A stretch of DNA of 23,920 nucleotides from Clostridiaceae bacterium. Its GTDB lineage: Bacteria; Bacillota_A; Clostridia; Clostridiales; Clostridiaceae. The position numbers were made by a program, and so were the translations under genes. The notes beneath the pieces were generated by a model. The model saw only the letters and a program-made list of their open reading frames with translations, searched no databases and was not told the DNA's origin. Of the stretch, positions 7,396-22,730 are shown piece after piece (positions within the stretch are counted from its first letter, which is position 1; each line of letters opens with the position of its first letter). The stretch lies in contig JAQSXU010000054.1 of the NCBI GenBank assembly GCA_029256485.1, positions 1 through 23,920 of the forward strand, given 5' to 3'.

Positions 7396-7770
7396 TTAAT
7401 TATATCTAATTACCTTAAGACAAGTTCCAACACCTACTGTAGGAACTTTTCTTTCTTTTAAATAAACTGAACCAGGTAATACTTCACTGGCCTTAACCTC
7501 TCCAAATATTAGACTGCAGTGACCCATTGAGCTTAGAGTAGTACAAGCAACATTGCCTACGCAAGCTACATTATATAGTTCACTTCCTATCTCAATACAG
7601 TCACCAGCAATAATGTTTTCTCGCAATTCTTTGCTTGTATGCATAAAACATATATCTTTCAATAGTTCAGGTGCATCTTGTTCAAATAGAACAAGCACAT
7701 TATTTTCTAACATTTCATATGCATCTTTGCCAATTTCTACTATTTGAGTTTTAAATATAATTTTTGCCAA
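7396..7770 (-). CDS. srlB: PTS glucitol/sorbitol-specific EIIA component
   Basis: Cytoplasmic phosphocarrier that passes phosphate from HPr to the EIIB of the glucitol PTS. The fold-defining features of EIIA-Gut are visible: DAPELLKDICFMHTSKEL, whose His aligns with the phosphorylated His of E. coli SrlB, and CVGNVACTTLSSMGHCSLIFGE. I placed the start at the TTG of 7768-7770. An AGGAG site lies nine bases upstream of it, and the protein then begins MAKIIFKTQIVEIG, in register with E. coli MTVIYQTTITRIG. An ATG at 7777-7779, three codons earlier, abuts that ribosome site and would need coupling to the upstream stop. The product is 124 residues, close to the E. coli protein. It is the last gene of the PTS operon. 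Confidence 0.92.
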   Translation of the reverse strand: MAKIIFKTQIVEIGKDAYEMLENNVLVLFEQDAPELLKDICFMHTSKELRENIIAGDCIEIGSELYNVACVGNVACTTLSSMGHCSLIFGEVKASEVLPGSVYLKERKVPTVGVGTCLKVIRYN

Positions 7771-7782
7771 ATCCGTCATCTC

Positions 7783-8331
7783 CTAAAACAATCCCATACT
7801 AAATACTAATCCAATGAGAACAGCAATTGGTGCTGTGATAAATCTTCCAATTAGAATTGCCGGAACTCCGCATTCAATTGTTTCTGGTTTTGCTTCTCCA
7901 AGTCCCATGGCAACTGGGATAAAATCACAGCCAACCTGTGGATTTATTGCAAATAATGCAGGCAATGCATATTGAGGTGGTATATGTCCAAGACCTATCT
8001 CTGTACCAATTAACACGCCAACTACTTGAGCAATTACTGCTCCTGGTCCAAGTAGTGGTGAAAGCACTGGTATAGCGCAAATTAATGATATAATTATTAA
8101 ACCTCCAAGGTTGGATGCAAATGGACTTAATGTATGCGCTATGATACTTCCTATTCCTGTCTTTAATATAATACCTATTAATGCCGAGACAAAAATCATG
8201 AATGGTAAAACTGTTCCAATAATAATTTCTACTGTCTCCTTGCCAGCTTCAAAGAACGTAGAAGTAAATGCTCCTGCTCCTCTACCAAAGGCAGTTATTA
8301 TTTTCTGAAATTTATCAAATTTAACGCTCAC
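7783..8331 (-). CDS. srlE: PTS glucitol/sorbitol membrane subunit: C-terminal part of SrlE as a separate gene
   Basis: Membrane subunit of the sorbitol permease, 182 residues, equivalent to the C-terminal half of E. coli SrlE. Segments line up well: FEAGKETVEIIIGTVLPFMIFVSALIGII, then LLGPGAVIAQVVGVLIGTEIGLG, IPPQYALPALFAINPQVGCDFIPV and a last hydrophobic helix. The EIIB domain is the preceding gene. The break falls in the natural interdomain linker. It has its own GTG start with AAGGGG upstream, and the preceding gene ends in a clean TAA, so this looks like a true gene split and not a frameshift. Together with SrlA it should form the sugar channel. Confidence 0.92.
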   Translation of the reverse strand: MSVKFDKFQKIITAFGRGAGAFTSTFFEAGKETVEIIIGTVLPFMIFVSALIGIILKTGIGSIIAHTLSPFASNLGGLIIISLICAIPVLSPLLGPGAVIAQVVGVLIGTEIGLGHIPPQYALPALFAINPQVGCDFIPVAMGLGEAKPETIECGVPAILIGRFITAPIAVLIGLVFSMGLF

Positions 8332-8352
8332 TTTAACACCCCTTAATATTTT

Positions 8353-8724
8353 TTATTTAACCAGACTTAAATTTTCTTCTTTTACTCCAGAAATATACAA
8401 TCCCTCTTTCATAAATCCTGCCATGATTCCAGATGGTTTTCCACCATAAATGTTTATAGTGAGAATGTGTTTTTTTGTAAGTAACCCGCATCTGCCAATA
8501 CCCCCACAGTTAATAACAGCACATGCCACTTCATTGTCTGCAACAGGATGTCTAAATCCATCTACAGCAGTACCTCCAGATAATTCGGCAATTTTTAAAG
8601 CTAGTGGATGAATTGACCCTCCCGTTATAGATACTATTTTATCCTTACCTGGAATTGGCGTAACCATAAGCGGAGTTCCCCAACCACCTTTACCTTTTTC
8701 TACTTTAACAGTGTTATAACTCAT
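8353..8724 (-). CDS. srlE: PTS glucitol/sorbitol-specific EIIB component: N-terminal part of SrlE
   Basis: Cytoplasmic EIIB domain (123 residues) that phosphorylates the incoming hexitol. It aligns with the N-terminus of E. coli SrlE: VEKGKGGWGTPLMVTPIPGK, SITGGSIHP, DGFRHPV, then INCGGIGRCGLLTKK and YISGVKEENLSLVK. Of C73 and C79 in the CGGxxRCG motif, one is the phosphorylated Cys; C79 is my choice by position. Stop and next start are separated by 21 bases. Because the same symbol in E. coli covers both halves, this gene and the next together equal SrlE. A GGGAGGA site precedes the ATG. Confidence 0.93.
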   Translation of the reverse strand: MSYNTVKVEKGKGGWGTPLMVTPIPGKDKIVSITGGSIHPLALKIAELSGGTAVDGFRHPVADNEVACAVINCGGIGRCGLLTKKHILTINIYGGKPSGIMAGFMKEGLYISGVKEENLSLVK

Positions 8725-8765
8725 AATTTTATTCCTCCCTGATATCTATTTTACAACGTTTACAA

Positions 8766-9308
8766 TTATGCTACAGCATCATCTATTTTTAAATTATTCT
8801 TTTTAGCAAAGAACATCCATAACTTTTCAGTAATTATGGAACGCATAAACCCAAGTACAACTCCAGCTAATAAATATCTAAGAGCAAGTCCTCCAGTTGA
8901 AAGTCCAAGTTTCTGAATTCCAGCAGCAATTCCAAGCCATATAAACAATTCACCTGGATCAGTGTGTGGAAATAATCCAGTAAATGGATGAGCAAATGAG
9001 AATATGTCATCTATGAATGATGCCTTATATTTTTCAGGCAAAAATCTTGACATTGAATAACACATTGGATTTGTTAATACAAAGTATGAAAGTATTGGTA
9101 GAACCATATACCTAACAAAAATATTTTCTGAACCATTTGCAGCAAATTTTTCAAGCTTATCTTCACCAATAAATTTAATTACGGCTTTTACAATAACTAA
9201 TAAACATGCTAAGGTAGGTAATATCCCTGTAACTTGTCCAGTTAAGGTTTTCCCACCCTCTTGAAATAATGAAATAAATACTTCTGCACCATGAGATAAA
9301 AATGCCAT
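8766..9308 (-). CDS. srlA: PTS glucitol/sorbitol-specific EIIC component
   Basis: Membrane channel subunit of the sorbitol permease, 180 residues, close to E. coli SrlA. Recognisable stretches are GAEVFISLFQEGGKTLTGQVTGILPTL near the N-terminus, YMVLPILSYFVLTNPMCYSMSRFLPEKYKAS in the middle, and HPFTGLFPHTDPGELFIWLGIAAGIQKLGL before the last helix. About four hydrophobic segments are seen. AGGAGG precedes the ATG at good spacing. A 144-base gap separates it from the aldolase gene upstream, the longest gap in the operon, and it includes an unused strong ribosome-site-like sequence. No convincing separate promoter was seen. Confidence 0.93.
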   Translation of the reverse strand: MAFLSHGAEVFISLFQEGGKTLTGQVTGILPTLACLLVIVKAVIKFIGEDKLEKFAANGSENIFVRYMVLPILSYFVLTNPMCYSMSRFLPEKYKASFIDDIFSFAHPFTGLFPHTDPGELFIWLGIAAGIQKLGLSTGGLALRYLLAGVVLGFMRSIITEKLWMFFAKKNNLKIDDAVA

Positions 9309-9452
9309 TTTAATTCCTCCTAATTTGAATATTTTTACTATTGTTAGTATAAGTGTTAATTCTCCCTCCTTCGTGTATTTTTAGTTCCTCTGAAGTTCTG
9401 CAAACATTGATTTGTCATGATTTCTATCCTATCTAGGTGTTTTTATATATAG

Positions 9453-10304
9453 TCATTTATTATTAGCTTGATTAGTAGAGCCAAAAACATCAAAGTAATG
9501 TTCTAGGCATTCTCTTATTGATTCCTCCCCAACAAGTAATGCATCAGCATAATTTAACTTGTCAATTATTGGTCTAACCTTAGAAGTTGCAGCCTTCATA
9601 AGATCAGTACAAATATTTACTTTGCTAATACCTAATTTTATCGTTTTACTAAGTGCCTCGTCACCTGTGCCAGACCCGCCATGTAAAACAAGAGGAATTT
9701 CTACAGAATTAGATATTTCGGTTAATCTTTCAAAATCAAGTTTCGGAGTTCCTTTATACTCTCCATGAGCTGTTCCAATGGCAACTGCTAAACTGTCTAC
9801 TTCAGTTAATTCAACAAACTTTTTTGCTTGTTGTGGGCTGGTAAATTTGTCTTTGAGCTCCCCATCTATTTTTTCGTAATCCGTACCCATGCCAACATGA
9901 CCAAGTTCTGCTTCAACAGTTACTCCACAAGCATGAGCAATTTTTACTACTTCAGAAACTCTTCTTACATTCTCTTCAAATTTTTCACTTGAAGCATCTA
10001 TCATTACAGAAGTAAAACCGTTACGTATAGCACTTATTACTGCCTCATATGAACTTCCATGATCTAGATGCAGTGCCAATGGAATAGATATGTTATTGGC
10101 ATATATTCTTAGTAAATTTGTTGCCTCAACAATATTCATATACTTAAAATGAGCTTCTGCAATACCTATTATGGCTGGAGATTTTTTTTCTTCACAAGCC
10201 CTAATAATAGCTCTCAGACTATTTAAATCCCATGCATTTGGCTGAGCAACCCCGTATTTATCTCGTTTTGCATCTAAAAGCATGCTCTTTGTATTCACTA
10301 ACAT
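9453..10304 (-). CDS. Class II ketose-bisphosphate aldolase (Fba/GatY/KbaY family)
   Basis: Zinc-dependent aldolase that would cleave a ketose bisphosphate to DHAP and an aldehyde (phosphate), 283 residues from the ATG at 10302-10304. Class II landmarks: HLDHG with catalytic D81 and zinc ligand H82, EAELGHVG (E131/E133), GTAHG (H180), LHGGSG (H208 and the phosphate loop) and NICTD (N230, D234). I chose this ATG because AAGGAG is well placed and a GTG three codons earlier overlaps that site. It begins 2 bases after the gutM stop. An aldolase is not needed for the simple glucitol-6-P to fructose-6-P route, so its presence hints at a different hexitol or ketose. A second aldolase in the divergent operon is a clear paralogue. 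Fructose versus tagatose specificity cannot be decided by eye. Confidence 0.9.
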   Translation of the reverse strand: MLVNTKSMLLDAKRDKYGVAQPNAWDLNSLRAIIRACEEKKSPAIIGIAEAHFKYMNIVEATNLLRIYANNISIPLALHLDHGSSYEAVISAIRNGFTSVMIDASSEKFEENVRRVSEVVKIAHACGVTVEAELGHVGMGTDYEKIDGELKDKFTSPQQAKKFVELTEVDSLAVAIGTAHGEYKGTPKLDFERLTEISNSVEIPLVLHGGSGTGDEALSKTIKLGISKVNICTDLMKAATSKVRPIIDKLNYADALLVGEESIRECLEHYFDVFGSTNQANNK

Positions 10305-10306
10305 AT

Positions 10307-10768
10307 TTAACACTCCTTCAAACCAATTTCTTTTCTATTTTGTTTTAGATAACTACCTATATTTTTGGATGCCATTAAAATGGCTTTCTCTTTTGGATTT
10401 AACTTTCTATTTTTATTATTGAAAATATTCTTTTGGCTATTGCAATTTTCTTCTTCATTGATAAAGGAATATATATTCTCGCCAATTATGTCATTGTATA
10501 TTTTAAATTTATCAAAAACGGATCTGCCATCTAATATCCTTGAATGTATAATATTCCCGCTTAAATCCACAACAATAAATATCATACATCCTTTTGATAT
10601 GAACCCTTTTGAACTACCCATTCCAAAGAAATAATCTTGAGTGTAAGTATTATAGATTTCTTTATAATTTTTTTGAACATTTTTTAACTGGCAATAAGTA
10701 AAGAAGCCTTGAATGCCCCAGAGTATAGCCAATATTATAAACATCACAATTATAAAAAGTTTACTCAT
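10307..10768 (-). CDS. gutM: GutM-family glucitol operon activator-like protein
   Basis: Member of the GutM family, which activates glucitol operons in enterobacteria. It has 153 residues. An N-terminal hydrophobic helix (about 4-24) is followed by the family hallmarks QGFFTYCQLKNVQKNYKEI, GMGSSKGFISKGCMIFIVVDLSGNI and SRILDGRSVFDKFK. It is longer than E. coli GutM (about 119) because of an Asn/Lys-rich insertion near 110-123 before the closing KAILMASKNIGSYL. It starts 4 bases after the SorC-family gene, so the two regulators are coupled. The membrane helix suggests membrane-associated control; its mechanism is not evident from sequence. Confidence 0.9.
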   Translation of the reverse strand: MSKLFIIVMFIILAILWGIQGFFTYCQLKNVQKNYKEIYNTYTQDYFFGMGSSKGFISKGCMIFIVVDLSGNIIHSRILDGRSVFDKFKIYNDIIGENIYSFINEEENCNSQKNIFNNKNRKLNPKEKAILMASKNIGSYLKQNRKEIGLKEC

Positions 10769-10772
10769 GGAT

Positions 10773-11744
10773 CTAACCTTCTTTCAAAATTTCTTTGGCT
10801 GTAATACTGTCAGTTATAATGACATTTACTAGATTTCCTTTAATTGCTGCTCTTATTGCCTTGACTTTTCTATGTCCATAAGCTATTCCGATTCTCAATG
10901 GTATTGCCAGTATTTCACTTGCTTTCACTCCTATTAACCTGTCATCAAATTCAGTCTTAACCATATCTCCAGATGCATTATAGTAGCGTCCAGCAATTTC
11001 ACCAGCTATTCCCATATTGAAAAGCTTTTTTTGTTCGGCTGATGTTATTAATCCTGAAAACAATGGAGAAGATTCTTCATCTACTGAGCCAATGCCAACT
11101 ATAGCTATATCTGCTGCTTTTCCCATTTCTATAATATCCCCTATTTGTTTCTCAGATTCAAGTATTCCCTTAACTGTTTTATTTTCAACAATCATTGGAG
11201 ATGATAGAAAATAGCTTGTAGTCTTTAATATAGAACCTAATTTTTTTGCAAGAGCATTAGAATAGTTAAGCTGGTTAGAATAATCTAAATCCATTTTAGG
11301 AGAACCAAGTAGAGGAATGATACTAACGTTTTTAGGAGTTACTTTTAAACTTGAAACAAAAACGCTCATGTAATCTACTGTCCTTCTTATTGTTGTTCCC
11401 CATGACATGGCTATTTTTTTATTATCACTAATTATTCTAAGCAAACATTCAGCAGCAATAGCAGGCACTATATTATCTAGAAGTACTTCATTTTCCACCT
11501 CCGCTATAACTGCCTCTTGTAGTTTAAATTTTTTTTCGAATTCTTTTTCTAAATCCATGGAGCTATTCATAGGATAATTAATGTGTATAGTAACATATCC
11601 ATCTTTTTTTGCTTTTGTAATAATTCTAGATATAGTGGATCTAGAAATATGAAACTTTTTGGCTATAACCTCCTGTGAAAGCTGTTCATTATAATACATA
11701 TCCAATACTCTAAACATCAATCTTTCTTGATTAGTATCTATCAT
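10773..11744 (-). CDS. SorC/DeoR-type sugar-binding transcriptional regulator
   Basis: DNA-binding regulator, 323 residues, typical SorC family length. The N-terminal helix-turn-helix spans about 17-48 (QLSQEVIAKKFHISRSTISRIITKAKKDGYV). The C-terminal sugar-phosphate-binding domain shows MSWGTTIRRTVDYM, the VGIGSVDEESSPLFSGLI loop, GEIAGRYYNASGD and the late RIGIAYGHRKVKAIRAAIKGN segment. Members respond to phosphorylated sugars and control adjacent PTS genes. It lies in the glucitol operon with its own probable promoter in the 109-base gap upstream. Candidate operators are the inverted repeat at 11831-11850 and the two GAAATATTTC palindromes near 12930 and 13070. AGGAGG precedes the ATG. Confidence 0.92.
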   Translation of the reverse strand: MIDTNQERLMFRVLDMYYNEQLSQEVIAKKFHISRSTISRIITKAKKDGYVTIHINYPMNSSMDLEKEFEKKFKLQEAVIAEVENEVLLDNIVPAIAAECLLRIISDNKKIAMSWGTTIRRTVDYMSVFVSSLKVTPKNVSIIPLLGSPKMDLDYSNQLNYSNALAKKLGSILKTTSYFLSSPMIVENKTVKGILESEKQIGDIIEMGKAADIAIVGIGSVDEESSPLFSGLITSAEQKKLFNMGIAGEIAGRYYNASGDMVKTEFDDRLIGVKASEILAIPLRIGIAYGHRKVKAIRAAIKGNLVNVIITDSITAKEILKEG

Positions 11745-11808
11745 ATTAATGCCTCCTAATTAAACTTAATACACTAATACTCATATATGAAATATTGTGC
11801 TTATAGCA

Positions 11809-11850
11809 ATTGTACATATATTATAATATTTTGTAAATACCTATTTACAA
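11809..11850 (-). promoter_or_regulatory. Promoter and putative operator upstream of the SorC-type regulator gene
   Basis: Minus strand: TTTACA (11832-11837), 17 bases, TACAAT (11809-11814). A perfect 9-bp inverted repeat, TTGTAAATACCTATTTACAA (11831-11850), covers the -35 box. This suggests autoregulation or another repressor. The repeat lies only 4 bases beyond the dehydrogenase stop. Confidence 0.6.
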
Positions 11851-11853
11851 TTC

Positions 11854-12891
11854 TTATAATTTTATTACTATTTTTAATCCTTCACCTTTTTTAACCATTT
11901 TAATACCATCAATAAGCTTATCAAGTGGGAGAACATTTGTTATTAATTTGTCAGCATCGACAATTTTTGAATTAATTAATTTTAGAGCTGTGATATGCTG
12001 AGTTATAGTTGATGCATATGATCCATGTACAGATATTTCCTTATAATGAATGATATTTGTATCAATAGAATTTATGGACTTATCTTTAGGTAATCCAGCG
12101 AAAAAGCTAACTTTTCCACCCTTTTTAGTAACACTTAAAGCTTGCTTTTGAACACTTGGAACTGAACATGCGGCGATGCTTACATCAACACCGCGACCAT
12201 TAGTTATTTCCATAACCTTTTCATATAAATCAACTTTACTTGAATCTATTGTATAATCTGCGCCTAACCTTGCTGCTAAATTTAATCTTTTTTCCTCAAT
12301 ATCTGCTAATATTACTTTTGAAGCTCCCTGAGCTTTTGCCAATGCTACATGCATTGCCCCAATTGGGCCTGCACCTATAACAAGTACCTCATTTCCTAGC
12401 TTGATATTTAAGCTTTTATGACCATTTATTACACAAGATAAAGGTTCAGCTATACATGACCATTTTAAATCTGCATCTTTGTCAAGTTTTATTACATTGC
12501 CATTGGATACTGCTTTTCCAGGCACCACCATATATTCTGAAAATCCACCATCGGCACCATACCCTATGGTTAAAGAATTATTACACATATTGGAGTCACC
12601 ATTTAAACATTCGAAACACTTTCCACAGGCTATTTGCGGTACTACTACAACTTTATCTCCTTTTTCATATTCTTCTACTTTTTTACCAACTGCTTCTATT
12701 ATTCCTGAGACCTCGTGACCAGTTACCCTTGGAGGAATAACATTTGCTTGACCATTGTAATATATTCTTACATCCGTGCCACAAATTGCACAATAGCTAA
12801 CCTTTATTAGTATACTTTCATCGTCAATTTCAGGTATTTGTTTTTCTTCAATCCTGATATCTTCAACATTATAAAATACTGCTGATTTCAT
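11854..12891 (-). CDS. Zinc-dependent medium-chain polyol (phosphate) dehydrogenase
   Basis: NAD-dependent dehydrogenase of the sorbitol/threonine dehydrogenase branch, 345 residues. Catalytic zinc site: C37 in CAICGTD, H59-E60 in GHE and E149 in AEP. Structural zinc cysteines: C89, C92, C95 and C103. The Rossmann motif GAGPIG is at 173-178, with D197 ending beta-2, which favours NAD over NADP. In this context it probably oxidises the hexitol phosphate delivered by the glucitol-type PTS to a ketose phosphate, as galactitol-1-P and related dehydrogenases do. Enterobacterial SrlD is a short-chain enzyme, so this would be a non-orthologous substitute. It is the first gene after the shared intergenic region, with its own promoter overlapped by a palindrome. 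Exact substrate unknown. Confidence 0.88.
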   Translation of the reverse strand: MKSAVFYNVEDIRIEEKQIPEIDDESILIKVSYCAICGTDVRIYYNGQANVIPPRVTGHEVSGIIEAVGKKVEEYEKGDKVVVVPQIACGKCFECLNGDSNMCNNSLTIGYGADGGFSEYMVVPGKAVSNGNVIKLDKDADLKWSCIAEPLSCVINGHKSLNIKLGNEVLVIGAGPIGAMHVALAKAQGASKVILADIEEKRLNLAARLGADYTIDSSKVDLYEKVMEITNGRGVDVSIAACSVPSVQKQALSVTKKGGKVSFFAGLPKDKSINSIDTNIIHYKEISVHGSYASTITQHITALKLINSKIVDADKLITNVLPLDKLIDGIKMVKKGEGLKIVIKL

Positions 12892-12918: not shown

Positions 12919-12940
12919 ACTATAGAAATATTTCTATAGT
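12919..12940. promoter_or_regulatory. Perfect 22-bp palindrome, putative operator O1
   Basis: GAAATATTTC (12925-12934) is flanked by ACTATA and TATAGT, giving exact two-fold symmetry. It covers the predicted transcription start of the dehydrogenase gene, the classic position for repression. A related palindrome is 140 bp away, centre to centre. Confidence 0.75.
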
Positions 12941-12971: not shown

Positions 12972-13061
12972 TACTTTTTTGAAAATTTATAGATAAATTA
13001 TGGTAGATACAAAAAACGAAGAATATTGTAATATTAAATAACAAAAAGTCATATTTGTAAT

Positions 13062-13079
13062 TACGAAATATTTCTATAT
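13062..13079. promoter_or_regulatory. Second GAAATATTTC palindrome, putative site O2
   Basis: GAAATATTTC at 13065-13074 with imperfect flanks (TAC/TATAT). It shares its core with O1. Its centre is about 57 bp upstream of the sigma-54 -24 element, roughly -81 from the likely start, a range used by sigma-54 activators. It may serve either regulator. Confidence 0.65.
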
Positions 13080-13124: not shown

Positions 13125-13140
13125 TTGGCACGACTATTGC
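13125..13140 (+). promoter_or_regulatory. Sigma-54 (-24/-12) promoter of the galactitol-type PTS operon
   Basis: TTGGCACGACTATTGC matches the sigma-54 consensus. GG (13127-13128) and GC (13139-13140) are separated by exactly ten bases. The start would be near 13151, leaving a leader of about 145 bases. That leader holds an AGAGGAGGG sequence at 13204-13212 with no start codon in range. The operon encodes a sigma-54 activator, which supports the call. The rest of the gene-free stretch 12892-13296 holds O1, O2 and the divergent promoter. Confidence 0.92.
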
Positions 13141-13296
13141 TATATAAAGAGTCAAGACCAGAGTAGAATAGCGGCCACAGTCATAAGGTATGAAAAGGTT
13201 TAAAGAGGAGGGAATTAGATTCAAAAAGCATATTGTCTTATACTAAAATTTCTACAATGGTCAAATTAAAAATTCATAATAAGGGGAGATGTTAAT

Positions 13297-13593
13297 ATGA
13301 AAGAAAAAGTTTCAATCTTATGCTGCTGCGGAGCAGGAATATGCACATCCAATTACCTAAAGGAAGAAATTGAAGACAGAATGAAACTAGAAGGATTTAA
13401 GGGTGTAAAAGTTTCAATCTGCAGAGTTACGGATCTTGAAGATCAAGTAGGTAAGGCTGATATGGTTGTAACTACTGTAGAACTTAAAAAAACTTTCGAA
13501 GCTCCCATGGTAAGAGCTTTAGGTATAATGCTTGATGATGCTGCTGCAAAAAAAGCATTGGATGAAATTGTAGCAATTGTAAAAACGCTATAG
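13297..13593 (+). CDS. PTS galactitol-type EIIB component
   Basis: Cytoplasmic phosphotransfer subunit, 98 residues, normal for GatB. The N-terminal P-loop-like motif ILCCCGAGICTSN carries the phosphorylated Cys. By alignment with the CGGAVATST motif of GatB it should be C11, the last of three consecutive cysteines (9-11), with C16 nearby. The later pattern VTDLEDQVGKADMVVTTVELKKTF matches the GatB core. It is first in the sigma-54 operon and starts 146 bases after the predicted transcript start, with a GGGGAG site. The substrate could be galactitol, another pentitol or hexitol, or a sugar acid; EIIB does not tell which. The triple Cys is odd and may be redox-sensitive (inference). Confidence 0.92.
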   Translation: MKEKVSILCCCGAGICTSNYLKEEIEDRMKLEGFKGVKVSICRVTDLEDQVGKADMVVTTVELKKTFEAPMVRALGIMLDDAAAKKALDEIVAIVKTL

Positions 13594-13617: not shown

Positions 13618-14889
13618 ATGGCAATTATTAATGCAATAACAAGTGCAATGACGGCTTTTTTCGGGTTTAATTCTGCAGTAACGGTTATGGGTATTATCCT
13701 TATAGTTTCATTTATAGTAAAAGTGCCTATAAAAAAAGCTATACTTGGTGCCTTAAAGGTATCCATAGGACTTCAGGGATTGATGATGGTTGTTGGCCTA
13801 ATACAAACAGCAATGCAAACTCCAGTTACCAACATTGTTAAATTGTATCACTTTAATAAAAGTGTTGTGGATGTTGGATGGGGAAGCTTAACTTATGCAT
13901 TTGGTAACACTTATGGTTACTTTGGAGTACTTGTATTTTTAGTATTAAATGTATTCTTAGTTTATATAAGATATACTCAAACTTTATATGTAGATGTATT
14001 TAATACATGGAGACCTATGCTTCTAGCTGGAATGGTAGGGGTAGCTTCACACAGTTTCTGGGTAGCTACATTAGCAGTAATTATATTCTTAATGATTGAC
14101 GTAAAGGCAGCAGATATTGCCGCACCGTATATAGAAAAAATAAATAACTTTCCTGCAGGCGGTTCATGGCCTCATGGAAGCCACTTCTCTTTCCAGGCGT
14201 GTATTGCAATACCAATCGAATGGGTTCTCAGAAGAACTCCTGGAATAAAAGATATAAACGTAAAAGCTGAAACTATAGAAGAAAAGTTCGGTATCTTTGG
14301 TGAAAGTACTGTAATGGGCGCAATGGTTGGATTTATCATTGGTTTGATAAGCCAGATAGGACTTATGCCTTCACTGTTATTAGGAACTGAAATGGCTACT
14401 GCATTTCTTCTTCTTCCAAGAATGGCATCAATACTTGTGGAAGGCTGGTTCCCAATAATTAAAGCTTCAAGAAAAATACTTTCAAGCAAACTTCACAGAG
14501 AAGATGTTCGTATAGCTCTTGACTGCTCAACTGTTATAGGTCATCCAGCAGTTGTTCCTACAACTTTATTAATGTATCCTATAGCATTACTTATTTCACT
14601 TGTACTTCCTGGAAACACAATGATAGCTTCAGTCAGCCTTATCATAGTTCTTTGGGAAAGTGCAGCAATTAATGCAATTACTGAAGGTAACATTATTCAT
14701 AACGTAATTATAGAATCATTTGTTATATGTCTGTTCTGTTGGGGCGCTACACTTATGGCTGCACCAATGACTGCTTTAGCTCAAACTTTAGGTTATACTG
14801 GATCATCACTTATTTCATCTTGGGATGCTTCAGGTACACCATTAGTTGTAATTGTTTATAAGGCATTTGGATGGATATTCGGTTTCTAA
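13618..14889 (+). CDS. PTS galactitol-type EIIC component
   Basis: Membrane channel that binds and translocates the sugar, 423 residues with about ten or more hydrophobic segments. The GatC pattern is recognisable: FGFNSAVTVMGIILIVSFIVKVPIKKAILGALKVSIGLQG at the N-terminus, then VDVGWGSLTYAFGNTYGYFG, TQTLYVDVFNTW and the amphipathic INNFPAGGSWPHGSHFSF loop. The second half contains IGHPAVVPTTLLMYPIAL and WESAAINAITEGNIIHN. It is 24 bases after EIIB with a strong AGGGGG site. It is followed by a 17-bp hairpin before EIIA. The EIIC-Gat family also carries arabinitol, ribitol-like and unknown substrates, so galactitol is only a family label. Confidence 0.93.
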   Translation: MAIINAITSAMTAFFGFNSAVTVMGIILIVSFIVKVPIKKAILGALKVSIGLQGLMMVVGLIQTAMQTPVTNIVKLYHFNKSVVDVGWGSLTYAFGNTYGYFGVLVFLVLNVFLVYIRYTQTLYVDVFNTWRPMLLAGMVGVASHSFWVATLAVIIFLMIDVKAADIAAPYIEKINNFPAGGSWPHGSHFSFQACIAIPIEWVLRRTPGIKDINVKAETIEEKFGIFGESTVMGAMVGFIIGLISQIGLMPSLLLGTEMATAFLLLPRMASILVEGWFPIIKASRKILSSKLHREDVRIALDCSTVIGHPAVVPTTLLMYPIALLISLVLPGNTMIASVSLIIVLWESAAINAITEGNIIHNVIIESFVICLFCWGATLMAAPMTALAQTLGYTGSSLISSWDASGTPLVVIVYKAFGWIFGF

Positions 14890-14986: not shown

Positions 14987-15466
14987 ATGCATGATACTTT
15001 CGACGGAATATACTATGATGTGTTATTGCTAGATAACATTAATACAAAAGAAGAAGCAATAAACTATATGGCAGATTACTTAGAAAAAAAAGGTTATGTT
15101 AATTCAAAATATGCTGCTGCTACTATTGAAAGAGAACATGTATACCCAACCGGCTTGGCAACAAAGCCAATCGGTGTAGCTGTAGCACATTCACAATCAG
15201 AAAATGTAATGAAACAATCCGTTTTACTTGGAATTACAAAAAAACCAATTAAGTTTTGCAAAATGGAAGATGATAAGTGTGAAATAGACGTAGGCATAAT
15301 TTTTATGCTGGCACTTAAAGGTGAAAATACTCATCTTAATTATTTGAAAAATATAGTTAACTTTTGTAAATATGAAGATAAAACCCAAAGATTATATTCT
15401 GTTTCATCCGCAGAGGAAGCTTACAAAATTTTTATATCTGAAATATTGAAAATTGATGAAAAATAG
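14987..15466 (+). CDS. PTS fructose/galactitol-type EIIA component
   Basis: Cytoplasmic phosphocarrier of the EIIA-2 family (Gat/Fru/Mtl type), 159 residues. The segment REHVYPTGLATKPIGVAVAHSQSENV contains the phosphorylated His (H68), equivalent to the His of the family PHG/AHS motif, with H51 supporting. GIIFMLALKGENTHLNYLKNIVNFC is the usual core helix-strand region. It receives phosphate from HPr and gives it to the EIIB of this operon. It probably also communicates with the operon's own activator, which carries a homologous EIIA domain at its C-terminus. An AAGGAGG site precedes the ATG. Hairpins flank the gene on both sides. Confidence 0.93.
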   Translation: MHDTFDGIYYDVLLLDNINTKEEAINYMADYLEKKGYVNSKYAAATIEREHVYPTGLATKPIGVAVAHSQSENVMKQSVLLGITKKPIKFCKMEDDKCEIDVGIIFMLALKGENTHLNYLKNIVNFCKYEDKTQRLYSVSSAEEAYKIFISEILKIDEK

Positions 15467-15523: not shown

Positions 15524-15587
15524 AGAATATTTCGTCGATATATTGTAAAATTAAATTGTTAAGTGATATTTTACGACAAAATATTCT
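15524..15587 (+). repeat. Imperfect 14-bp inverted repeat between EIIA and aldolase genes
   Basis: AGAATATTTCGTCG (15524-15537) pairs with CGACAAAATATTCT (15574-15587) with one mismatch and a 36-base loop. The left arm also resembles the GAAATATTTCGTA side of O2. It ends 6 bases before the GGAGATG ribosome site of the aldolase. Confidence 0.75.
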
Positions 15588-15603
15588 TAATGGAGATGAT
15601 AAA

Positions 15604-16437
15604 ATGTTAACTGATATGAAAAGTATCCTTTTGGATGCAAAGAAAAATAAATATGGTGTAGCTGCTGCTGACGTTTGGAGTGAAAGCAGCATAAAGGCTG
15701 TAATTGCAGCCGCAGAAAATGAGAATGCTCCTGCAATAATTGCAATTTACCCTGCAATCGCAGATGTATTGGAAGTAGGTAAAATAGCTGCTGATCTTGC
15801 TAGTAAATCAAAGGTACCTTTGGCTGTTCATCTAGATCATGGTACAACCTTCGATCAAGCTGTACAATCAGTTAAGGCAGGACTTACTTCTGTTATGGTA
15901 GATCGTTCAACCCTTCCTTTTGAAGACAACGTAAGAGAAGTTAAAGAAATTGTTAAACTTGCTCATGCGGTTGGTGTTACTGTAGAGGCTGAATTAGGAC
16001 ATGTAGGTCAGGGATTTGAATATGAACAAACCAAAAATACTGCACTTACTGATCCAAAGCAAGCAGTTGAGTTTGTTAAACAAACTGGAGTAGATTGTTT
16101 AGCTGTAGCAGTTGGTACTTCTCACGGCGTATACAAAGGAAAACCTGAAATACATTTCGACTTGCTTGAAACATTAAGGGATGCCTTAGATGTTCCTCTA
16201 GTTCTTCACGGATGTTCCGGTACAGGCGATGAAAATCTTAAAAAGGCAATTGAATTTGGAATAACTAAATTAAATCTTTATACTGATTTAGATATGGCTG
16301 GCTTAGAAATGTTTAAAAACTACTCAAAAGGCCATGATAACTATAAAATAGTTGATGCCAGCAAAATAATTTACAAGGGGTATACTGAGAAATTACAATA
16401 CTATATAAGATTATTTGGCTCAAATAATAGAGCCTAA
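15604..16437 (+). CDS. Class II ketose-bisphosphate aldolase, variant phosphate loop
   Basis: Zinc-dependent aldolase, 277 residues. I chose the ATG at 15604, not an in-frame codon 48 bases upstream, because GGAGATG is well placed and the protein then aligns from its first residues with the paralogue at 9453-10304. Catalytic features: HLDHG (D78, H79), VEAELGHVG (E128/E130), GTSHG (H174) and LHG (H202). Two departures from its paralogue stand out. The phosphate-binding GGSG is GCSG (C204), and the conserved N-x-x-TD reads NLYTD instead of NICTD. These, and DRS for DAS near 100, suggest another substrate or handedness. It presumably cleaves the ketose (bis)phosphate made from the sugar imported by this operon's PTS. 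No dedicated 1- or 6-phosphate kinase is inside the operon. Confidence 0.9.
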   Translation: MLTDMKSILLDAKKNKYGVAAADVWSESSIKAVIAAAENENAPAIIAIYPAIADVLEVGKIAADLASKSKVPLAVHLDHGTTFDQAVQSVKAGLTSVMVDRSTLPFEDNVREVKEIVKLAHAVGVTVEAELGHVGQGFEYEQTKNTALTDPKQAVEFVKQTGVDCLAVAVGTSHGVYKGKPEIHFDLLETLRDALDVPLVLHGCSGTGDENLKKAIEFGITKLNLYTDLDMAGLEMFKNYSKGHDNYKIVDASKIIYKGYTEKLQYYIRLFGSNNRA

Positions 16438-16483: not shown

Positions 16484-16513
16484 TAGTCTTAATGAGACAT
16501 GAGGTGAAAAGCA

Positions 16514-19399
16514 TTGGACGAAAGTAACCTGAATAAAGTTAAAGAAGTTATTAGCAATGAGGATTTTAAAAATCCATTAAGCGATGAGGAAATAGCACAG
16601 AAATTGTCCATTTTAAGGGAAACCGTTACCAATTGCAGACATGAGCTTAACATTCCCAATTCAAGAGAAAGAAGAAAACCTGCCTTAATTGAGGCCATAA
16701 AATCAATTAAAAGTAAAGATGCAGATATAAATGTAAAGCAAATAACTTTTAACCTTAATAGGCTTGGTTTCAACGTTTCCAAGAATTCCGTATCTGAAAT
16801 AGTTAGTAATTCTGAAACATATTTAAAAGTATCAGAAACTGACAAAAATTTAATGCAATATAGTAACAATGATTCCTTTAGTAAATTGGTTGGTTACGAT
16901 GGAAGCCTTACAAAATGTGTAAAACAAGCTAAGGCTTCAATACTATACCCTCCTTTTGGACTTCCCACTTTAATAATTGGGGAAAGCGGTACAGGTAAAA
17001 CACTTTTTGCTGAATTTATGTATAAATACGCTGTGCAGGAAAAGATAGTAAGTGAAAATGCCCCTTTTATATCCTTCAACTGCGCTGATTACGGAGATAA
17101 TCCTCAACTTTTACTGTCTATTCTTTATGGTTACAAAAAAGGTTCCTTTACAGGTGCAGACAATGACACCGCAGGTCTTGTTGAGAATGCAAATAATGGG
17201 GTTCTTTTTCTGGATGAAATTCATAGGCTGCCCCCTAAAGGTCAGGAGATATTATTTTCTTTACTGGACAAAGGCCAGTTTAGAAGACTTGGTGAGGCAT
17301 CTAATGACAGAAAAGTTCGCATCTTTTTTATAGGTGCAACCACAGAAAATATAGAATCTTCTCTGCTGGTCAGCTTTAGGAGAAGAGTTCCTATGCTTAT
17401 TTCTGTGCCTTCTTTAAAGGATAGACCTATTAGAGAAAGAGTTAAGCTTATACACAGTTTTTTTCAGGAGGAATCCAATAGAACTAATCATAAAATCTTT
17501 GTGGATGAAAAGATAATTAAGGCTTTTGCACTAAAAAACTTTCAAGGAAATATAGGACAGCTTAGGAGTGAAATTCAAGTTACATGTGCTAATGCTTTTG
17601 TGGAAAAAATGAACAACTGCAAAGATGAAATTGACATTGGACTTAATGAAATATTATATAATAGCTTTTTCAGTGATGATACCAATTTGGATAATCATAA
17701 CCTGTCGGAATATAATATGCTTATAAAGGATAAATTATTTATCCCTAAGATGAATGATAGCAATATTGTAAAGGATACTAAATATTCTTTACCTGAAGAC
17801 ATTTATGAAAAAATTGAGAAAAAATACAATGAGTTGAAAAAACTTAACATGCCTCTAGATGAAATGGAAAAAGTGCTGTGGGTATATATTCTTAATAACT
17901 TTAATAAAATAGGCTTTGATTCTAAAAACAGCAATGATTTAACAGGGCTTGATAATTTAAAATATATCATTAACGATAAAGTTATCTGTATTTTGAAAAA
18001 CTTTATCAGCACTTTAAAGTCCAATTATCCTAGTAAAAAAATTAATGAAAAAGTCATTACCCATCTTGCAATTCATATAAGCGAGGCTATAAAGAGAATA
18101 CGATTTAAATTAGAAATAATCAATCCTAACATTATATATATAAAGGAAAAATATAAAGAAGAATTTAGTCTTGCATGTGATCTTGCAGCACAAATTGAAA
18201 AAGATGAAAAAATCAACATACCTGAAGACGAAATAGGCTTTATTGCAATGTATATAAAAGAAATTCTAAAATCAAGAAATATCAAAGGCAAAATTGGCCT
18301 TGTTATACTTTGCCATGGAAAAATAGCTACAGAAATGGTGAATGTGGTTAATAAATTAATGGATGTTGATTTCCCAATAGCAATAGATATGCCTCTGGAT
18401 GTTAGTCCTTCAAAGATATTTGAAAAGACAATAGAAATTTCAAAAATATTAGATACAGGTAACGGGTTATTATTTCTTGTGGATATGGGTTCATTAATAA
18501 ATGTTGGTGATATTGTTACCAAAAGAACTGGCATTGAAACCCGTACCATTGACAGGGTTGATCTTCTTACAGTGCTGGAGGCTGTACGAAAGGTTTATGT
18601 AGCTGAAGAGAACCTAGATGACATATATTACTCATTGATCAATTCTAAATTTAAATTACCAGTTACTTCACGTAGATCTGATAAACCTTTAGCACTAATA
18701 GCTATGTGTCTTACAGGTCATGGCGTGGCAATTAAAATACATGAAGCACTGTCAGCCAAATATGAAAACATTCCAATAATTACTTTAGGCCTTTTAAATG
18801 ATGATCTAAACGAGAAGATAGACCACCTTAAACAAAAATATAATATTGCTGCAATTGTTGGCACTATCAACCCTGGAATAGACGGCATTAAATTTATTCC
18901 ATTTGAAGATAGCTTTATGAAGAATAATATGATTTTACTTGATTGTATTTTAAAACAGAAACATTCCACTAATCTTGAAAATGCACTAAAAGAAGACCTT
19001 ATCATGCTTGATTTAAAGTGCAGTTCAAAGAAAGAAGTTATCGAGAGAATTTGTCTTCATCTATTTAATAATGGCTATGTAAAAAAGGAATATCTTAACT
19101 CAGTTTTAGAACGTGAGAATTTAAACACCACGTACTTTAGAGGAAACATTGGAATGCCTCATGGAATGTCAGCTTATGTAAACAATTCTTGTTTAATGTT
19201 TGTTCGGCTGAAAAATGAAGTTATTTGGGATAAAGACGGTAGAAAAGTTAATCTTATATGCATGCCTGTAATAGATAACAGCGATAGTGATACAGTTAAT
19301 TATTTATTTAAAATACTAAAACAGCCTGAAATCGTTTCTGGACTAATGGCTGCTAAAAATTCAGGTGAATTTTTGGATATTCTGCAAAAAAATTTATAA
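16514..19399 (+). CDS. Sigma-54-dependent PTS-regulated activator (LevR-like chimera)
   Basis: A 961-residue enhancer-binding activator of the LevR group. Domains in order: an N-terminal HTH (about 20-55, plus a second helical element near 72-98) that resembles the RpoN-box end of sigma-54 itself; AAA+ ATPase with Walker A GESGTGKT (156-163), the sigma-54 contact loop GSFTGA (210-215), Walker B LFLDE (231-235) and arginines at 289-291; a PRD (about 425-590) with H517/H521; an EIIA-Man-like domain with VILCHGK (H601); an EIIB-Gat-like segment with AMCLTGHG (C732); and a C-terminal EIIA-Fru-like domain with GNIGMPHG (H883). LevR itself ends in a second PRD instead. The start is TTG, with GAGGTG 7 bases upstream. 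It probably activates the sigma-54 promoter at 13125 when its PTS partners are dephosphorylated (inference). Confidence 0.93.
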   Translation: MDESNLNKVKEVISNEDFKNPLSDEEIAQKLSILRETVTNCRHELNIPNSRERRKPALIEAIKSIKSKDADINVKQITFNLNRLGFNVSKNSVSEIVSNSETYLKVSETDKNLMQYSNNDSFSKLVGYDGSLTKCVKQAKASILYPPFGLPTLIIGESGTGKTLFAEFMYKYAVQEKIVSENAPFISFNCADYGDNPQLLLSILYGYKKGSFTGADNDTAGLVENANNGVLFLDEIHRLPPKGQEILFSLLDKGQFRRLGEASNDRKVRIFFIGATTENIESSLLVSFRRRVPMLISVPSLKDRPIRERVKLIHSFFQEESNRTNHKIFVDEKIIKAFALKNFQGNIGQLRSEIQVTCANAFVEKMNNCKDEIDIGLNEILYNSFFSDDTNLDNHNLSEYNMLIKDKLFIPKMNDSNIVKDTKYSLPEDIYEKIEKKYNELKKLNMPLDEMEKVLWVYILNNFNKIGFDSKNSNDLTGLDNLKYIINDKVICILKNFISTLKSNYPSKKINEKVITHLAIHISEAIKRIRFKLEIINPNIIYIKEKYKEEFSLACDLAAQIEKDEKINIPEDEIGFIAMYIKEILKSRNIKGKIGLVILCHGKIATEMVNVVNKLMDVDFPIAIDMPLDVSPSKIFEKTIEISKILDTGNGLLFLVDMGSLINVGDIVTKRTGIETRTIDRVDLLTVLEAVRKVYVAEENLDDIYYSLINSKFKLPVTSRRSDKPLALIAMCLTGHGVAIKIHEALSAKYENIPIITLGLLNDDLNEKIDHLKQKYNIAAIVGTINPGIDGIKFIPFEDSFMKNNMILLDCILKQKHSTNLENALKEDLIMLDLKCSSKKEVIERICLHLFNNGYVKKEYLNSVLERENLNTTYFRGNIGMPHGMSAYVNNSCLMFVRLKNEVIWDKDGRKVNLICMPVIDNSDSDTVNYLFKILKQPEIVSGLMAAKNSGEFLDILQKNL

Positions 19400-19428: not shown

Positions 19429-20469
19429 ATGGAAAAGAAAAAGATTTTAGTTGTAGCTGACGGGGGTGTTACTCCTGATTTAATGAAAAAGATGTTTGAA
19501 CTTGAGCAATACGGTGCTGAAGTTACAATGATAGAAGATAAAGATATGAATAATATGGGTGCAATTACTGATCGTATGCTGCAAATTGAATTAGGCGGTG
19601 TAGATGCTGCTCCTACTTACAAGCCTTTACTTGATGCTTGTGCAGATAAAGATATTATAGTTGTACACGTTGCTTCCATAAATAAAGAAGTTATAAATGC
19701 AGCTAAAAATTTGAAGATTGCTGCTGTACTACGAGGCGGTATTGAAAATGCTGATGTGCCAGCATTAACTGAGCATGGCATAAAACTTATAAACGCACCA
19801 TGGCGTAGTGCTCACGCTGTTGCTGATTTTACCGTTGGTATGATGATTGCAGAAAATAAGAATATTGCCCGCAGTTATAAGTTAATTTGTGAAGGTAAAT
19901 GGTGCAAGAAATATGCAAATCAAGAATATATTCACGATATGCGTAAATGCACTGTAGGTTTAATTGGTTTTGGTTATATTGGCCGTCAGGTTGCTAAAAG
20001 ATTAAGCGGTTTTGACAGTAAAGTTGTTATATATGATCCATTTTTAGATCCTAAGGTAATTACTGAAGCCGGATATACTGCAGTTACATTAGAAGAGTTA
20101 CTAGCAAAATCTGATTTCGTTTCAGTTCATATACGTCTATCAGAAAAAACCACTAAATTCATTGGTGCTAAAGAATTTGCTCAAATGAAACCTACTGCAT
20201 ATTTTATAAACACTGCACGTGCGGGAATAGTTGATACAAAAGCTCTTATCAATGCTTTGCAAACAAAATCAATTGGTGGTGCCGCTATTGATGTATTTGA
20301 TGAAGAGCCGCTTCCAAGTGACAGTCCTCTGTTAAAATTGGATAATATCACACTTACATCTCATTTAGCAGGTACTTCATGTGATACTATGAGAAATTCT
20401 GTAGAAATAGGTTTTGATGATCTTAAAAATTACCTGCAAGGCTTACCAATGCAAAATGTAAGAAACTAA
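19429..20469 (+). CDS. D-isomer-specific 2-hydroxyacid dehydrogenase
   Basis: NAD-dependent oxidoreductase of the phosphoglycerate/2-hydroxyacid dehydrogenase family, 346 residues. The nucleotide site is GLIGFGYIG (G180, G182, G185), with D203 in VVIYDPF indicating NAD preference. The catalytic triad is complete: R264 in NTARAGIV, E293 in DEEPLP and H312 in LTSHLAG. An 'LRGGIENADVPALTEHGI' stretch and 'WRSAHAVADFTVGMMI' are standard for the family. It follows the regulator by 29 bases with AAAGGAG and ends before the operon terminator, so it is the last gene of the sigma-54 operon. Its presence with a GatABC-type PTS suggests that the imported compound, or a product of it, is a 2-hydroxy or 2-keto acid. 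The true substrate is not evident. Confidence 0.9.
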   Translation: MEKKKILVVADGGVTPDLMKKMFELEQYGAEVTMIEDKDMNNMGAITDRMLQIELGGVDAAPTYKPLLDACADKDIIVVHVASINKEVINAAKNLKIAAVLRGGIENADVPALTEHGIKLINAPWRSAHAVADFTVGMMIAENKNIARSYKLICEGKWCKKYANQEYIHDMRKCTVGLIGFGYIGRQVAKRLSGFDSKVVIYDPFLDPKVITEAGYTAVTLEELLAKSDFVSVHIRLSEKTTKFIGAKEFAQMKPTAYFINTARAGIVDTKALINALQTKSIGGAAIDVFDEEPLPSDSPLLKLDNITLTSHLAGTSCDTMRNSVEIGFDDLKNYLQGLPMQNVRN

Positions 20470-20608: not shown

Positions 20609-21148
20609 TTACCAGTGTCTTGAGGTAGCTTCCGAATTGGAAATTTCATTTCTTTTACTTAACATCAAACAAATAGCATCAAGTACTATATGAAGGCTTT
20701 GGTCAAATAAAGAGCTCAAAAGCTGTACTGATTTTCTTTCCTTTCCGCTATCACCTTTAGTTGTACCTGGGACCACTACAACTTTATCAGCAAGTGTCCC
20801 TATAGTGGAATTGATTTTGCTGGTTACCGCAATTATTATACAGCCTTTTTCCTTTGCTTTCTTTACATTTCCAACTACATTACTGCTTTCTCCTGATCCG
20901 GATACTGCAAAGTATATATCCCCGTTTTTTACAGATGGAGTTATAGTTTCGCCCACTGAGTATACCTCATAGCCTAAATGCATGAGCCTCATGGCAAAAC
21001 CTTTTCCCATAAGTCCGGAACGACCCTCTCCATCTACAAAAATTCTGCTGTTATCCTTTATATATTCCAATACTTCTTCTAATTGGTTTCTGTCTACTTT
21101 AGCCATTACAGATTCTATTTCTTCAGTGATAATATTTATAACATCCAT
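20609..21148 (-). CDS. hxlB: 6-phospho-3-hexuloisomerase (SIS domain)
   Basis: Interconverts D-arabino-3-hexulose-6-phosphate and fructose-6-phosphate, the second step of the ribulose monophosphate pathway. A single SIS domain, 179 residues. PHI hallmarks are visible: VDGEGRSGLMGKGFAMRLMHLGYEVYSVGETITP (38-71), SGSGESSNV (83-91), AVTSKINSTIGTLAD and LLSSLFDQSLHIVLDA. The C-terminus ends SRHW, a few residues shorter than the usual RHANLE-type tail. Its ATG directly abuts the hxlA stop, and its GGGAGATGG site lies inside hxlA, so translation is coupled. Either formaldehyde fixation or reverse flow from fructose-6-P to ribulose-5-P is possible. Confidence 0.93.
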   Translation of the reverse strand: MDVINIITEEIESVMAKVDRNQLEEVLEYIKDNSRIFVDGEGRSGLMGKGFAMRLMHLGYEVYSVGETITPSVKNGDIYFAVSGSGESSNVVGNVKKAKEKGCIIIAVTSKINSTIGTLADKVVVVPGTTKGDSGKERKSVQLLSSLFDQSLHIVLDAICLMLSKRNEISNSEATSRHW

Positions 21149-21763
21149 TTATACCATCTCCCTGAATTTTTTAGCACTTTCTTTAACATTGGAAGCCTTA
21201 GCTATTGCTCCGCCAATTATCACTATGTCTGCAGAGGCTTCTTTTATTTCTTTAATAGTATCATAGTTTACTCCGCCTGCCACAGCAATATTATTTATCT
21301 CTGGGAACTTTTCCTTAAAACTTTTTAGAAGGCTTGTCAAACTGCTGTGCTTATTATCTGAAGCAAGATGAACACAAAATATAGCATTACTAAATTTCTT
21401 TAATTTATGAATTTTATCATCTTCTACTTCAAGAAGATCTATCATCATGATTTTATTAAATTCATCTGCTACCTTCTGGCAGGCAGCTATAGTATCTAGA
21501 GAAGCTGCTGCCATAACAGTTGCAATATCTGCTCCATTAGAGAAGGCAGCATTAAATTCATATGCTCCTTCATCCATAGTTTTTATATCCGCCAGCAATA
21601 TTTTGCCTGGAAAACTGTTCTTAATTTCTTTTACTGAAGTCATGCCAAAATCCTTTATTAATGCTGTTCCAACTTCTATTATATCTATATAAGGGCTGGC
21701 CTCCCCAATAATCTTTATTGCATTATCAATACTAATTCTATCCAATGCCAATTGTATTTTCAC
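21149..21763 (-). CDS. hxlA: 3-hexulose-6-phosphate synthase
   Basis: Condenses formaldehyde with ribulose-5-phosphate, or runs the reverse. 204 residues of the OMP-decarboxylase suprafamily, on a GTG start with GAGGTTG upstream. Seen: LALDRIS, DIIEVGTALIKDFG, the Mg site LADIKTMDEG (D59, K61, D64), IDLLEVED, VHLASD and VAGGV near 162. The paired isomerase gene favours HPS over 3-keto-L-gulonate-6-P decarboxylase (UlaD), which has the same fold and Mg motif. HPS usually reads VHTGID where this has VHLASD, a small deviation that leaves some doubt about substrate. It starts 1 base after the kinase stop, so the three genes are tightly coupled. Confidence 0.88.
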   Translation of the reverse strand: MKIQLALDRISIDNAIKIIGEASPYIDIIEVGTALIKDFGMTSVKEIKNSFPGKILLADIKTMDEGAYEFNAAFSNGADIATVMAAASLDTIAACQKVADEFNKIMMIDLLEVEDDKIHKLKKFSNAIFCVHLASDNKHSSLTSLLKSFKEKFPEINNIAVAGGVNYDTIKEIKEASADIVIIGGAIAKASNVKESAKKFREMV

Positions 21764-21764
21764 T

Positions 21765-22715
21765 TTACAACCTCACTTTATGATCATTTAAATATTTTTC
21801 TAATTTTTCGTGATCTGGTAACCCTTCATTGTCACCTGAAACCATTACCTGAAGCGAACCTATGGCATTTGCTCTAATGACAGCATCTCTTAATGGCAGT
21901 TTTTCTAATAGACCACTGATTATACCTACTGCAAAGCCATCACCAGCTCCAACAGTATCCACCACATTATCCACTTTAAAACCTGGAACCTGATAACATT
22001 CATCTTTAGTTTTTACAAAAGCTCCTTTATCGCCAAGCTTAACAATTACAGTTTTAACCCCCAGTCTCAGATAAAAGTCTGCAATTTCTTCTGGGTTACT
22101 GCTTCCTGTTAATATTAAGCCCTCACCAATTCCAGGGAGAACCATATCGCATTTTGAAGCTATATCATTAATTACTGTTACCATTTGCTTTTCAGATTCC
22201 CAAAGACTGGGTCTAAGATTAGGATCAAAGGTTGTGAATATACCCTTTTCTTTACTGATTTTTACTAATTCATAAGTAGCTTCCCTGCAGCTTTCAGATA
22301 ATGCTGGTGGTATGCCAGTAACATGAATATGTGTTACCCCTTCAAGGGAAATATCTTTTACATCTTCTTTTGAAATATGAGAAGCGGCTGACCCTTTTCG
22401 AAAATAAACCACTTCTGGATCTCCAACTTCCGTTTTACCTTTCAACTGAAAAGCTGTTGGGTACTTTGAATCATAGGTAATATAAGCGGTATCTATATTC
22501 TCTCTTTTCAAAGATTTAATTACATATTTGCCAAAAGGGTCATTACCAAGCTTTGTTACATAGCTTACTTGATGTTCAAGCCTTCTTAATCCAATACATA
22601 CATTTACCTCAGCGCCTGCCAGGGATCTTGTAAAGTTCTCCACATCTTCTAAATTGCCTACTTTATCTGCTATAAACATAGCCATTGGCTCACCTATTAA
22701 TATGACTTCTGGCAT
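21765..22715 (-). CDS. PfkB-family carbohydrate kinase, KdgK (2-keto-3-deoxygluconate kinase)-like
   Basis: ATP-dependent sugar kinase, 316 residues from the ATG at 22713-22715. I preferred this ATG to one three codons earlier because AAAGGAG abuts the earlier one and is nine bases from this one. In the numbering from the earlier ATG: the N-terminal GEPMAMFIAD replaces the usual GE(A/S)xxxF pattern, GAEVNVCIGLRRLE is standard, FDPNLRPSLW (167-176) is typical of KdgK/IolC-type kinases, and the PfkB signature DTVGAGDGFAVG carries catalytic D262. Candidate substrates are 2-keto-3-deoxygluconate or a related keto sugar or acid. Its neighbours hxlA-hxlB are unusual partners for KdgK, and no KDPG aldolase is in the window. 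The substrate is therefore open. Confidence 0.88.
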   Translation of the reverse strand: MPEVILIGEPMAMFIADKVGNLEDVENFTRSLAGAEVNVCIGLRRLEHQVSYVTKLGNDPFGKYVIKSLKRENIDTAYITYDSKYPTAFQLKGKTEVGDPEVVYFRKGSAASHISKEDVKDISLEGVTHIHVTGIPPALSESCREATYELVKISKEKGIFTTFDPNLRPSLWESEKQMVTVINDIASKCDMVLPGIGEGLILTGSSNPEEIADFYLRLGVKTVIVKLGDKGAFVKTKDECYQVPGFKVDNVVDTVGAGDGFAVGIISGLLEKLPLRDAVIRANAIGSLQVMVSGDNEGLPDHEKLEKYLNDHKVRL

Positions 22716-22730
22716 TATACTCATCTCCTT

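Follow-up and report, generated by a model that had tools for sequence, protein, structure and literature searches.

In LevR-type activators, HPr-dependent phosphorylation at the EIIA-Man domain activates and EII-dependent phosphorylation at the second phosphotransferase system (PTS) regulation domain (PRD2) inhibits the protein, and the activity of CelR is lower without C682 (PMC10864463; PMC4987338). The usual DNA-binding part of sigma-54 activators is a Fis-type helix-turn-helix (HTH; 335 of 490 in one clostridial survey, PMC6615313), and LevR group activators carry a winged HTH. LevR-like regulators of Clostridiales in which an EIIA (EIIA-Mtl-like) domain replaces PRD2 have already been published (PMC10864463, citing Deutscher 2014). 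An arabitol/xylitol PTS operon of C. difficile, attributed to an activator of the LevR type, dropped to 0.03 when sigL was mutated (PMC7438776); this establishes sigma-54 dependence for an operon of this general type, but not an involvement of the protein described here. This protein is a 961-residue activator encoded in a 23,920-nucleotide stretch from a Clostridiaceae bacterium (GCA_029256485.1, contig JAQSXU010000054.1, positions 1 to 23,920, forward strand; the whole stretch is called the window). Instead of a winged HTH it has a doubled RpoN-like head, and we consider it probable that it represents a PTS-controlled subclass of the LevR type, whose tandem, re-specified RpoN-homologous HTHs bind TTTGTAA half-sites. 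The computed basis of this reading is homology, fold, the pairing with an EIIA-2 domain and the conservation of TTTGTAATTACAAA, a site above the operon promoter that keeps helical phase with it. The gene and its parts are as follows.

16514..19399, + strand: sigma-54 activator gene, LevR-type variant, 961 amino acids (open reading frame and domain searches)
16501..16506, + strand: probable ribosome-binding site GAGGTG, ending 7 bases before the TTG start
16514..16681, + strand: HTH unit 1 (residues 1-56), RpoN C-terminal domain type
16679..16825, + strand: HTH unit 2 (residues 56-104), RpoN-like (hhalign, PF04552 in one relative, AlphaFold2)
16889..17578, + strand: AAA+ domain (residues 126-355; Pfam and other domain searches)
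17141..17158, + strand: sigma-54 contact loop GSFTGA (GAFTGA motif), residues 210-215 (alignment of 33 relatives)
18032..18259, + strand: PRD (residues 507-582; Pfam PF00874)
18296..18616, + strand: EIIA-Man-like domain (residues 595-701) with H601 (Pfam PF03610)
18683..18913, + strand: EIIB-Gat-like segment (residues about 724-800) with C732
18986..19390, + strand: EIIA-2 domain (residues 825-959) with H883 (PTS_EIIA_2, Pfam)

The sequence-only reading of this DNA, which had placed the open reading frame correctly at 16514-19399, likened the front of the protein to the C-terminal domain of sigma-54, and this likeness was confirmed at the level of sequence and fold. The Pfam family Sigma54_DBD (PF04552) aligned with residues 7-55 over positions 107-160 of its 160 (31.5 bits at a cut-off of 22.8 bits, E 1.8e-7), and the Pfam search of the front gave no assignment to an unrelated HTH family. 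Residues 1-60 matched RpoN chains among the PDB sequences (2o8k, E 1.7e-7), and the model of residues 7-55 superposed on the sigma-54 RpoN domain over 54 residues at 1.1 Å. The single RpoN-like HTH of the sequence-only reading thus stands, but it is followed by a second one that had gone unreported. Residues 56-104 aligned with RpoN in hhalign (probability 97.2, 44 columns), unit 2 of one relative (G003:C4) contains a second PF04552 stretch (18.5 bits), and the AlphaFold2 model places helices at 74-83 and 90-109 in this region. The front therefore seems to consist of two consecutive HTH units, both homologous to the domain at the RpoN C-terminus that reads the -24 element. This domain (2o8k, 2ahq) shares fold and sequence with unit 1 and matches unit 2 more weakly; in contrast to it, the activator has a Glu at the equivalent of R456, a turn in unit 1 that is 5 residues shorter and a different predicted site. 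Neither the activator-interacting domain (AID, PF00309) nor the core-binding domain (CBD, PF04963) of sigma-54 was among the 19 Pfam families found at E<=1, and because both are absent, the protein is not a sigma factor.

Behind the front, the sequence is that of a LevR-type protein: an AAA+ domain with a GAFTGA-type loop (Sigma54_activat PF00158, residues 126-286, E 1.4e-38), then PRD1, then an EIIA-Man domain with a His of the phosphorylatable type. In 33 aligned relatives, the second letter of the loop is A in 20, S in 11 and T in 2, and the remaining five letters are invariant. Pfam detected one PRD stretch only, in which H521 and Y580 are invariant (33/33); Y580 stands about where we would expect the second PRD His. 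H601, C732 and H883, the last within the phospho-His motif that had been pointed out in EIIA-2, are likewise invariant in all 33. The EIIB-Gat-like piece gave no Pfam family at E<=10 and no credible PDB match, and its tentative assignment is based on the invariant C732, the predicted beta-alpha-beta order and the DagR model (NCBIfam NF047795). This model aligns with residues 84-826 at 465 bits, below its curated 1400 bits, and leaves both ends of the activator unaligned. No second (truncated) PRD was found at the C-terminus by Pfam; residues 825-959 match PTS_EIIA_2 instead (111.9 bits, E 3.3e-32), as had been proposed, and we therefore filed the protein as a variant and not as a plain LevR. 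The likeness of this domain to the operon's own EIIA is weak (33% over 46 residues). A Foldseek search with the whole model had AAA+ activator chains among the 50 matches listed and was uninformative on the protein ends.

Taken together, the protein shares with LevR/CelR/ManR-type activators an N-terminal DNA-binding part, the AAA+ domain with its loop, PRD1, the EIIA-Man His, PTS genes as neighbours and perhaps the Cys-bearing EIIB-Gat-like segment, but differs from them in its two RpoN-like HTHs and in having EIIA-2 for PRD2. Its C-terminal architecture equals that of the Clostridiales regulators with an EIIA-Mtl-like domain, as described in a passage of PMC10864463 that says nothing on their DNA-binding domain, and both very likely form one group. 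An RpoN-like HTH was mentioned for no activator of this type in the literature searched, which was largely open-access and included PMC6615313, PMC10864463, PMC3162934, PMC7175178, PMC4496707, PMC9770992, PMC4496699, PMC7438776, PMC12316311 and PMC4987338. The EIIA half is known; judged by this literature, the RpoN-headed class with its TTTGTAATTACAAA site is a newly described form of a familiar type of activator.

To survey this architecture, the A1 profile, built from the 33 relatives, was searched over the fetched loci. In class A, 52 records (43 distinct proteins) cover the whole length between the RpoN-like front and the EIIA end; in class B, the match of 64 records (61 distinct) begins only behind the front and never reaches the EIIA domain (ends 335-848), the record counts being inflated by overlapping loci. 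Some of the 12 class B records shorter than 850 amino acids may be incomplete. Since both front and end were required for class A, the pairing informs through the lack of one-sided records: no clear full-length case with the front and no EIIA end, or the reverse, was present among the fetched loci. Four records fall in neither class, three of them (L118, L138, L140) apparently cut by the locus end; the fourth, L017, aligns from column 5 to 826, and its N-terminus matches TrmB/Crp-type models and not PF04552. In class A, the RpoN-like front pairs with a C-terminal EIIA-2. By sequence, the RpoN-headed class is present in Clostridia and Negativicutes. The closest named relative among the best 120 of 2800 protein matches is from Clostridium estertheticum (74%). 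The architecture is visible in domain databases, where many proteins in this list carry precomputed PF04552 beside PF00158. A search with residues 1-110 only yielded 15 close relatives, too shallow a set to compare other architectures. Several relatives start in the same alignment column as the activator. A Clostridiaceae genome (G142:C3:58053-60161) holds a 64% relative that matched only from residue 265 and has two stops, apparently a decayed copy.

The class B proteins also bear on the question whether the front is an ordinary winged HTH, of the FapR/LexA kind or a diverged LevR type, that came to resemble RpoN by convergence. A profile-profile probability of 91.0 between the activator front and the class B N-termini speaks against our interpretation, and we therefore lowered our confidence in it slightly; RpoN itself reached only 7-29 with the same N-termini. 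Moreover, none of 10 class B N-termini matched PF04552, whereas nine matched TrmB and/or Crp-type models at E<0.01 and one (L014) no HTH model, in agreement with the earlier remark that the front is unlike a normal LevR HTH. Residues 1-60 matched 23 PDB sequences at E<=1, of which 22 are sigma-54 and one is DBP48 (E 0.76); FapR is not included. The RpoN match also extends over parts outside the HTH, and PF04552 matched all members of a wider, more diverse set (25/25). Convergence is therefore decidedly unlikely, and the front is better described as RpoN-homologous.

The DNA that such a front would read was looked for upstream of the PTS operon to which the activator gene belongs, with the following features.

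13026..13031, + strand: extra half-site TTGTAA
13054..13068, + strand: candidate upstream activating sequence (UAS) TTTGTAATTACGAAA, the only window match to TTTGTAATTACNAAA (up to 1 mismatch), conserved in orthologs
13125..13141, + strand: sigma-54 promoter TTGGCACGACTATTGCT, exact consensus, same place in orthologs
13297..13593, + strand: PTS EIIB, Gat/lactose type (domain searches)
13618..14889, + strand: PTS EIIC-Gat (Pfam)
14987..15466, + strand: PTS EIIA-2 (Pfam)
15556..16437, + strand: class II ketose-bisphosphate aldolase (domain searches)
19429..20469, + strand: 2-hydroxyacid dehydrogenase, same direction, after the activator (Pfam)

The activator gene lies between those of the aldolase and the dehydrogenase. 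The probable substrate is a polyol or ketose that is processed via a ketose bisphosphate. TTGGCACGACTATTGCT is the sole window match to the sigma-54 consensus when up to 1 mismatch is allowed; such a match also arose in 20 of 100 shuffles. Twenty ortholog regions were fetched, 15 of them group 1, and the promoter precedes the IIB gene in 14/15 of these and in the window. One region (L170), cut at the contig end and without upstream sequence, was excluded, so that the 15 promoters compared are 14 group-1 orthologs plus the window. At 60-80 bp above the promoter, TTTGTAATTACAAA, which contains no GG, is conserved: it occurs within one mismatch in 7/15 (expected 0.03 in Markov-resampled sequence) and within three mismatches in 12/15 (expected 2.22). 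Its core GTAATTAC is exact in 12/15 and has two mismatches in L169, L175 and L176; it starts at -68/-69 or at -78 to -80, positions about one helical turn apart. In the shuffled window, the TTTGTAATTACNAAA pattern (up to 1 mismatch) gave a mean of 0.06 matches.

In 300 genomes of the class to which G001 belongs, the pattern GTAATTAC-N58-78-TGGCAY-N5-TTGC matched 14 times, 12 above this operon and two elsewhere (G019, G259), and the reversed control pattern matched once. Eleven of the 12 belonged to the discovery set and G020 was new. A group-1 ortholog is present in 16 of the 300 genomes (15 at 50% or more, plus G020), and the pattern misses 4. In 200 Clostridiaceae genomes it matched once (G166), which we took for chance. 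The group-2 relatives L184-L188, whose promoter lies close above the activator gene, had no near match there except L184 (3 mismatches, at -113), and the site is therefore claimed for group 1 only. In L001 (48% identical), TGTAATTACA lies 100 bases above a sigma-54 promoter-like site.

Binding of the activator at TTTGTAATTACAAA is predicted. In the window, this site is overlapped by another palindrome, GAAATATTTC, which would fit an operator of another regulator, with the activator binding elsewhere. However, the site accompanies the activator operon among orthologs 49-61% identical to the activator, its helical phase to the -24 box is kept, and at this spacing it is found elsewhere only twice in the 300 genomes. 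In addition, TGTA-N2-TACA occurs in 9/51 class A and 0/64 class B promoter-like upstream regions, a few of which lie within genes. A foreign operator is thus unlikely, and we regard TTTGTAATTACAAA as the candidate site of the activator.

Separately, the palindrome TATAGAAATATTTCTATA is exact at 12921-12938 of the window, and a copy with 3 mismatches at 13061-13078 overlaps the UAS (two matches in 0/100 shuffles); it may serve as operator for the SorC/DeoR-type regulator encoded at 10773-11744.

Mapping from the RpoN alignment puts R35-E36 of the activator at R455-R456 of sigma-54, which we take to be the RR pair in the RpoN box of E. coli. Both residues are invariant in the 33 relatives; in the wider set of 25, R35 is kept throughout, and position 36 is E in 18, S in 3, G in 2, A in 1 and K in 1, but never Arg. 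In sigma-54, R455 and R456 recognise CTGGC at -28 to -24 (PMC9770992), and promoter binding is lost in R455A or R456A (PMC7175178). The sequence-only reading had suggested that the HTH reads GG-containing sites related to the -24 element; because R456 is lost and TTTGTAATTACAAA is free of GG, this idea was set aside. The stronger version, in which the HTH reads the -24 element or a close GG relative and the activator acts at the promoter as a competitor or mimic of sigma-54, draws on the homology to a -24 reading domain, the kept R455 equivalent, the TTG..A that the half-site TTGTAAT has in common with TTGGCAC, and TGTA[AG] next to the -24 box. The loss of R456 and a conserved distal site without GG leave it very little chance. 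The shared TTG..A may reflect a distant kinship of activator site and -24 element.

The promoter itself may provide a second contact region. TGTA[AG] directly adjoins the -24 box in 14/15 group-1 promoters, the window being the exception, and may be either a half-site for the activator next to sigma-54 or an extension of the promoter. It is common for T-rich tracts above a promoter to help the polymerase. Together with the window, which has no abutting half-site, this favours the view that TTTTTGTAA beside the -24 box is only an extended contact of sigma-54 or of the C-terminal domain of the polymerase alpha subunit. Yet among promoter-like sites across the loci, some of them inside genes, TGTA[AG] abuts 13/19 in group 1, 0/35 in other class A and 0/65 in class B, whereas TTTTGT within the last 10 bases is found in 5/19, 11/35 and 1/65, and related hosts, for example Pelosinus and Pectinatus, are represented among the class B loci (record titles). 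We regard a mere extended contact as a real possibility, though short of an even chance. In one locus (L086, about 4217-4422), a class A activator gene is directly followed by three successive sigma-54 promoter-like sites at intervals of about 95 bases.

An origin of the RpoN-headed activator by fusion of adjacent rpoN and levR-like genes is plausible. Such neighbours exist today: in Hungatella (L007), 28 bases separate the end of rpoN (7521-8951, PF04552 match) from a class A activator gene (8980-11928) on the same strand, and in L065 an RpoN-box gene (motif only, 3-1166) overlaps a class B activator gene (1163-3877) by 4 bases, also on the same strand. In L030, an RpoN-box gene (motif only, 7240-8559) is divergent to a class B activator gene (8695-11553). 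More speculatively, the activator may have taken over its partner sigma-54's head, doubled and retuned it, and the homologous heads may dock on neighbouring grooves at the promoter. This is suggested by the half-site that abuts the -24 box in orthologous promoters, and we hold it to be rather doubtful.

For the re-specified tandem, we propose that the HTHs would bind the TTTGTAA half-sites at TTTGTAATTACAAA, perhaps also the half-site beside the -24 box, and that the AAA+ ring with its GSFTGA loop would remodel the sigma-54 polymerase, with transcription opening when the PTS reports substrate. By analogy to LevR, phosphorylation of H601 via HPr would be activating, H883 and C732 would report the phosphorylation state of the operon's own transporter, and H883 of EIIA-2 might take over the role of the inhibitory PRD2 His as operon PTS reporter.

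The window contains further sugar genes on the minus strand. At 20609-22724, 3-hexulose-6-phosphate synthase and 6-phospho-3-hexuloisomerase (the ribulose monophosphate pair) lie beside a PfkB-type sugar kinase, and at 7396-10768 glucitol/sorbitol PTS genes (GutA, SrlE-like) are found with a second class II aldolase and a GutM-like protein.

A predicted binding site is now available for this class; none was found in the literature searched. The class offers a direct route to the question of how a single DNA-reading fold acquired another specificity (R456 to Glu, TTGGCAC versus TTTGTAAT) and of a possible meeting of activator and sigma factor on the promoter. If the docking of both heads were true, the activator would act from the distal site and also as a promoter-proximal gatekeeper, barring or guiding sigma-54.
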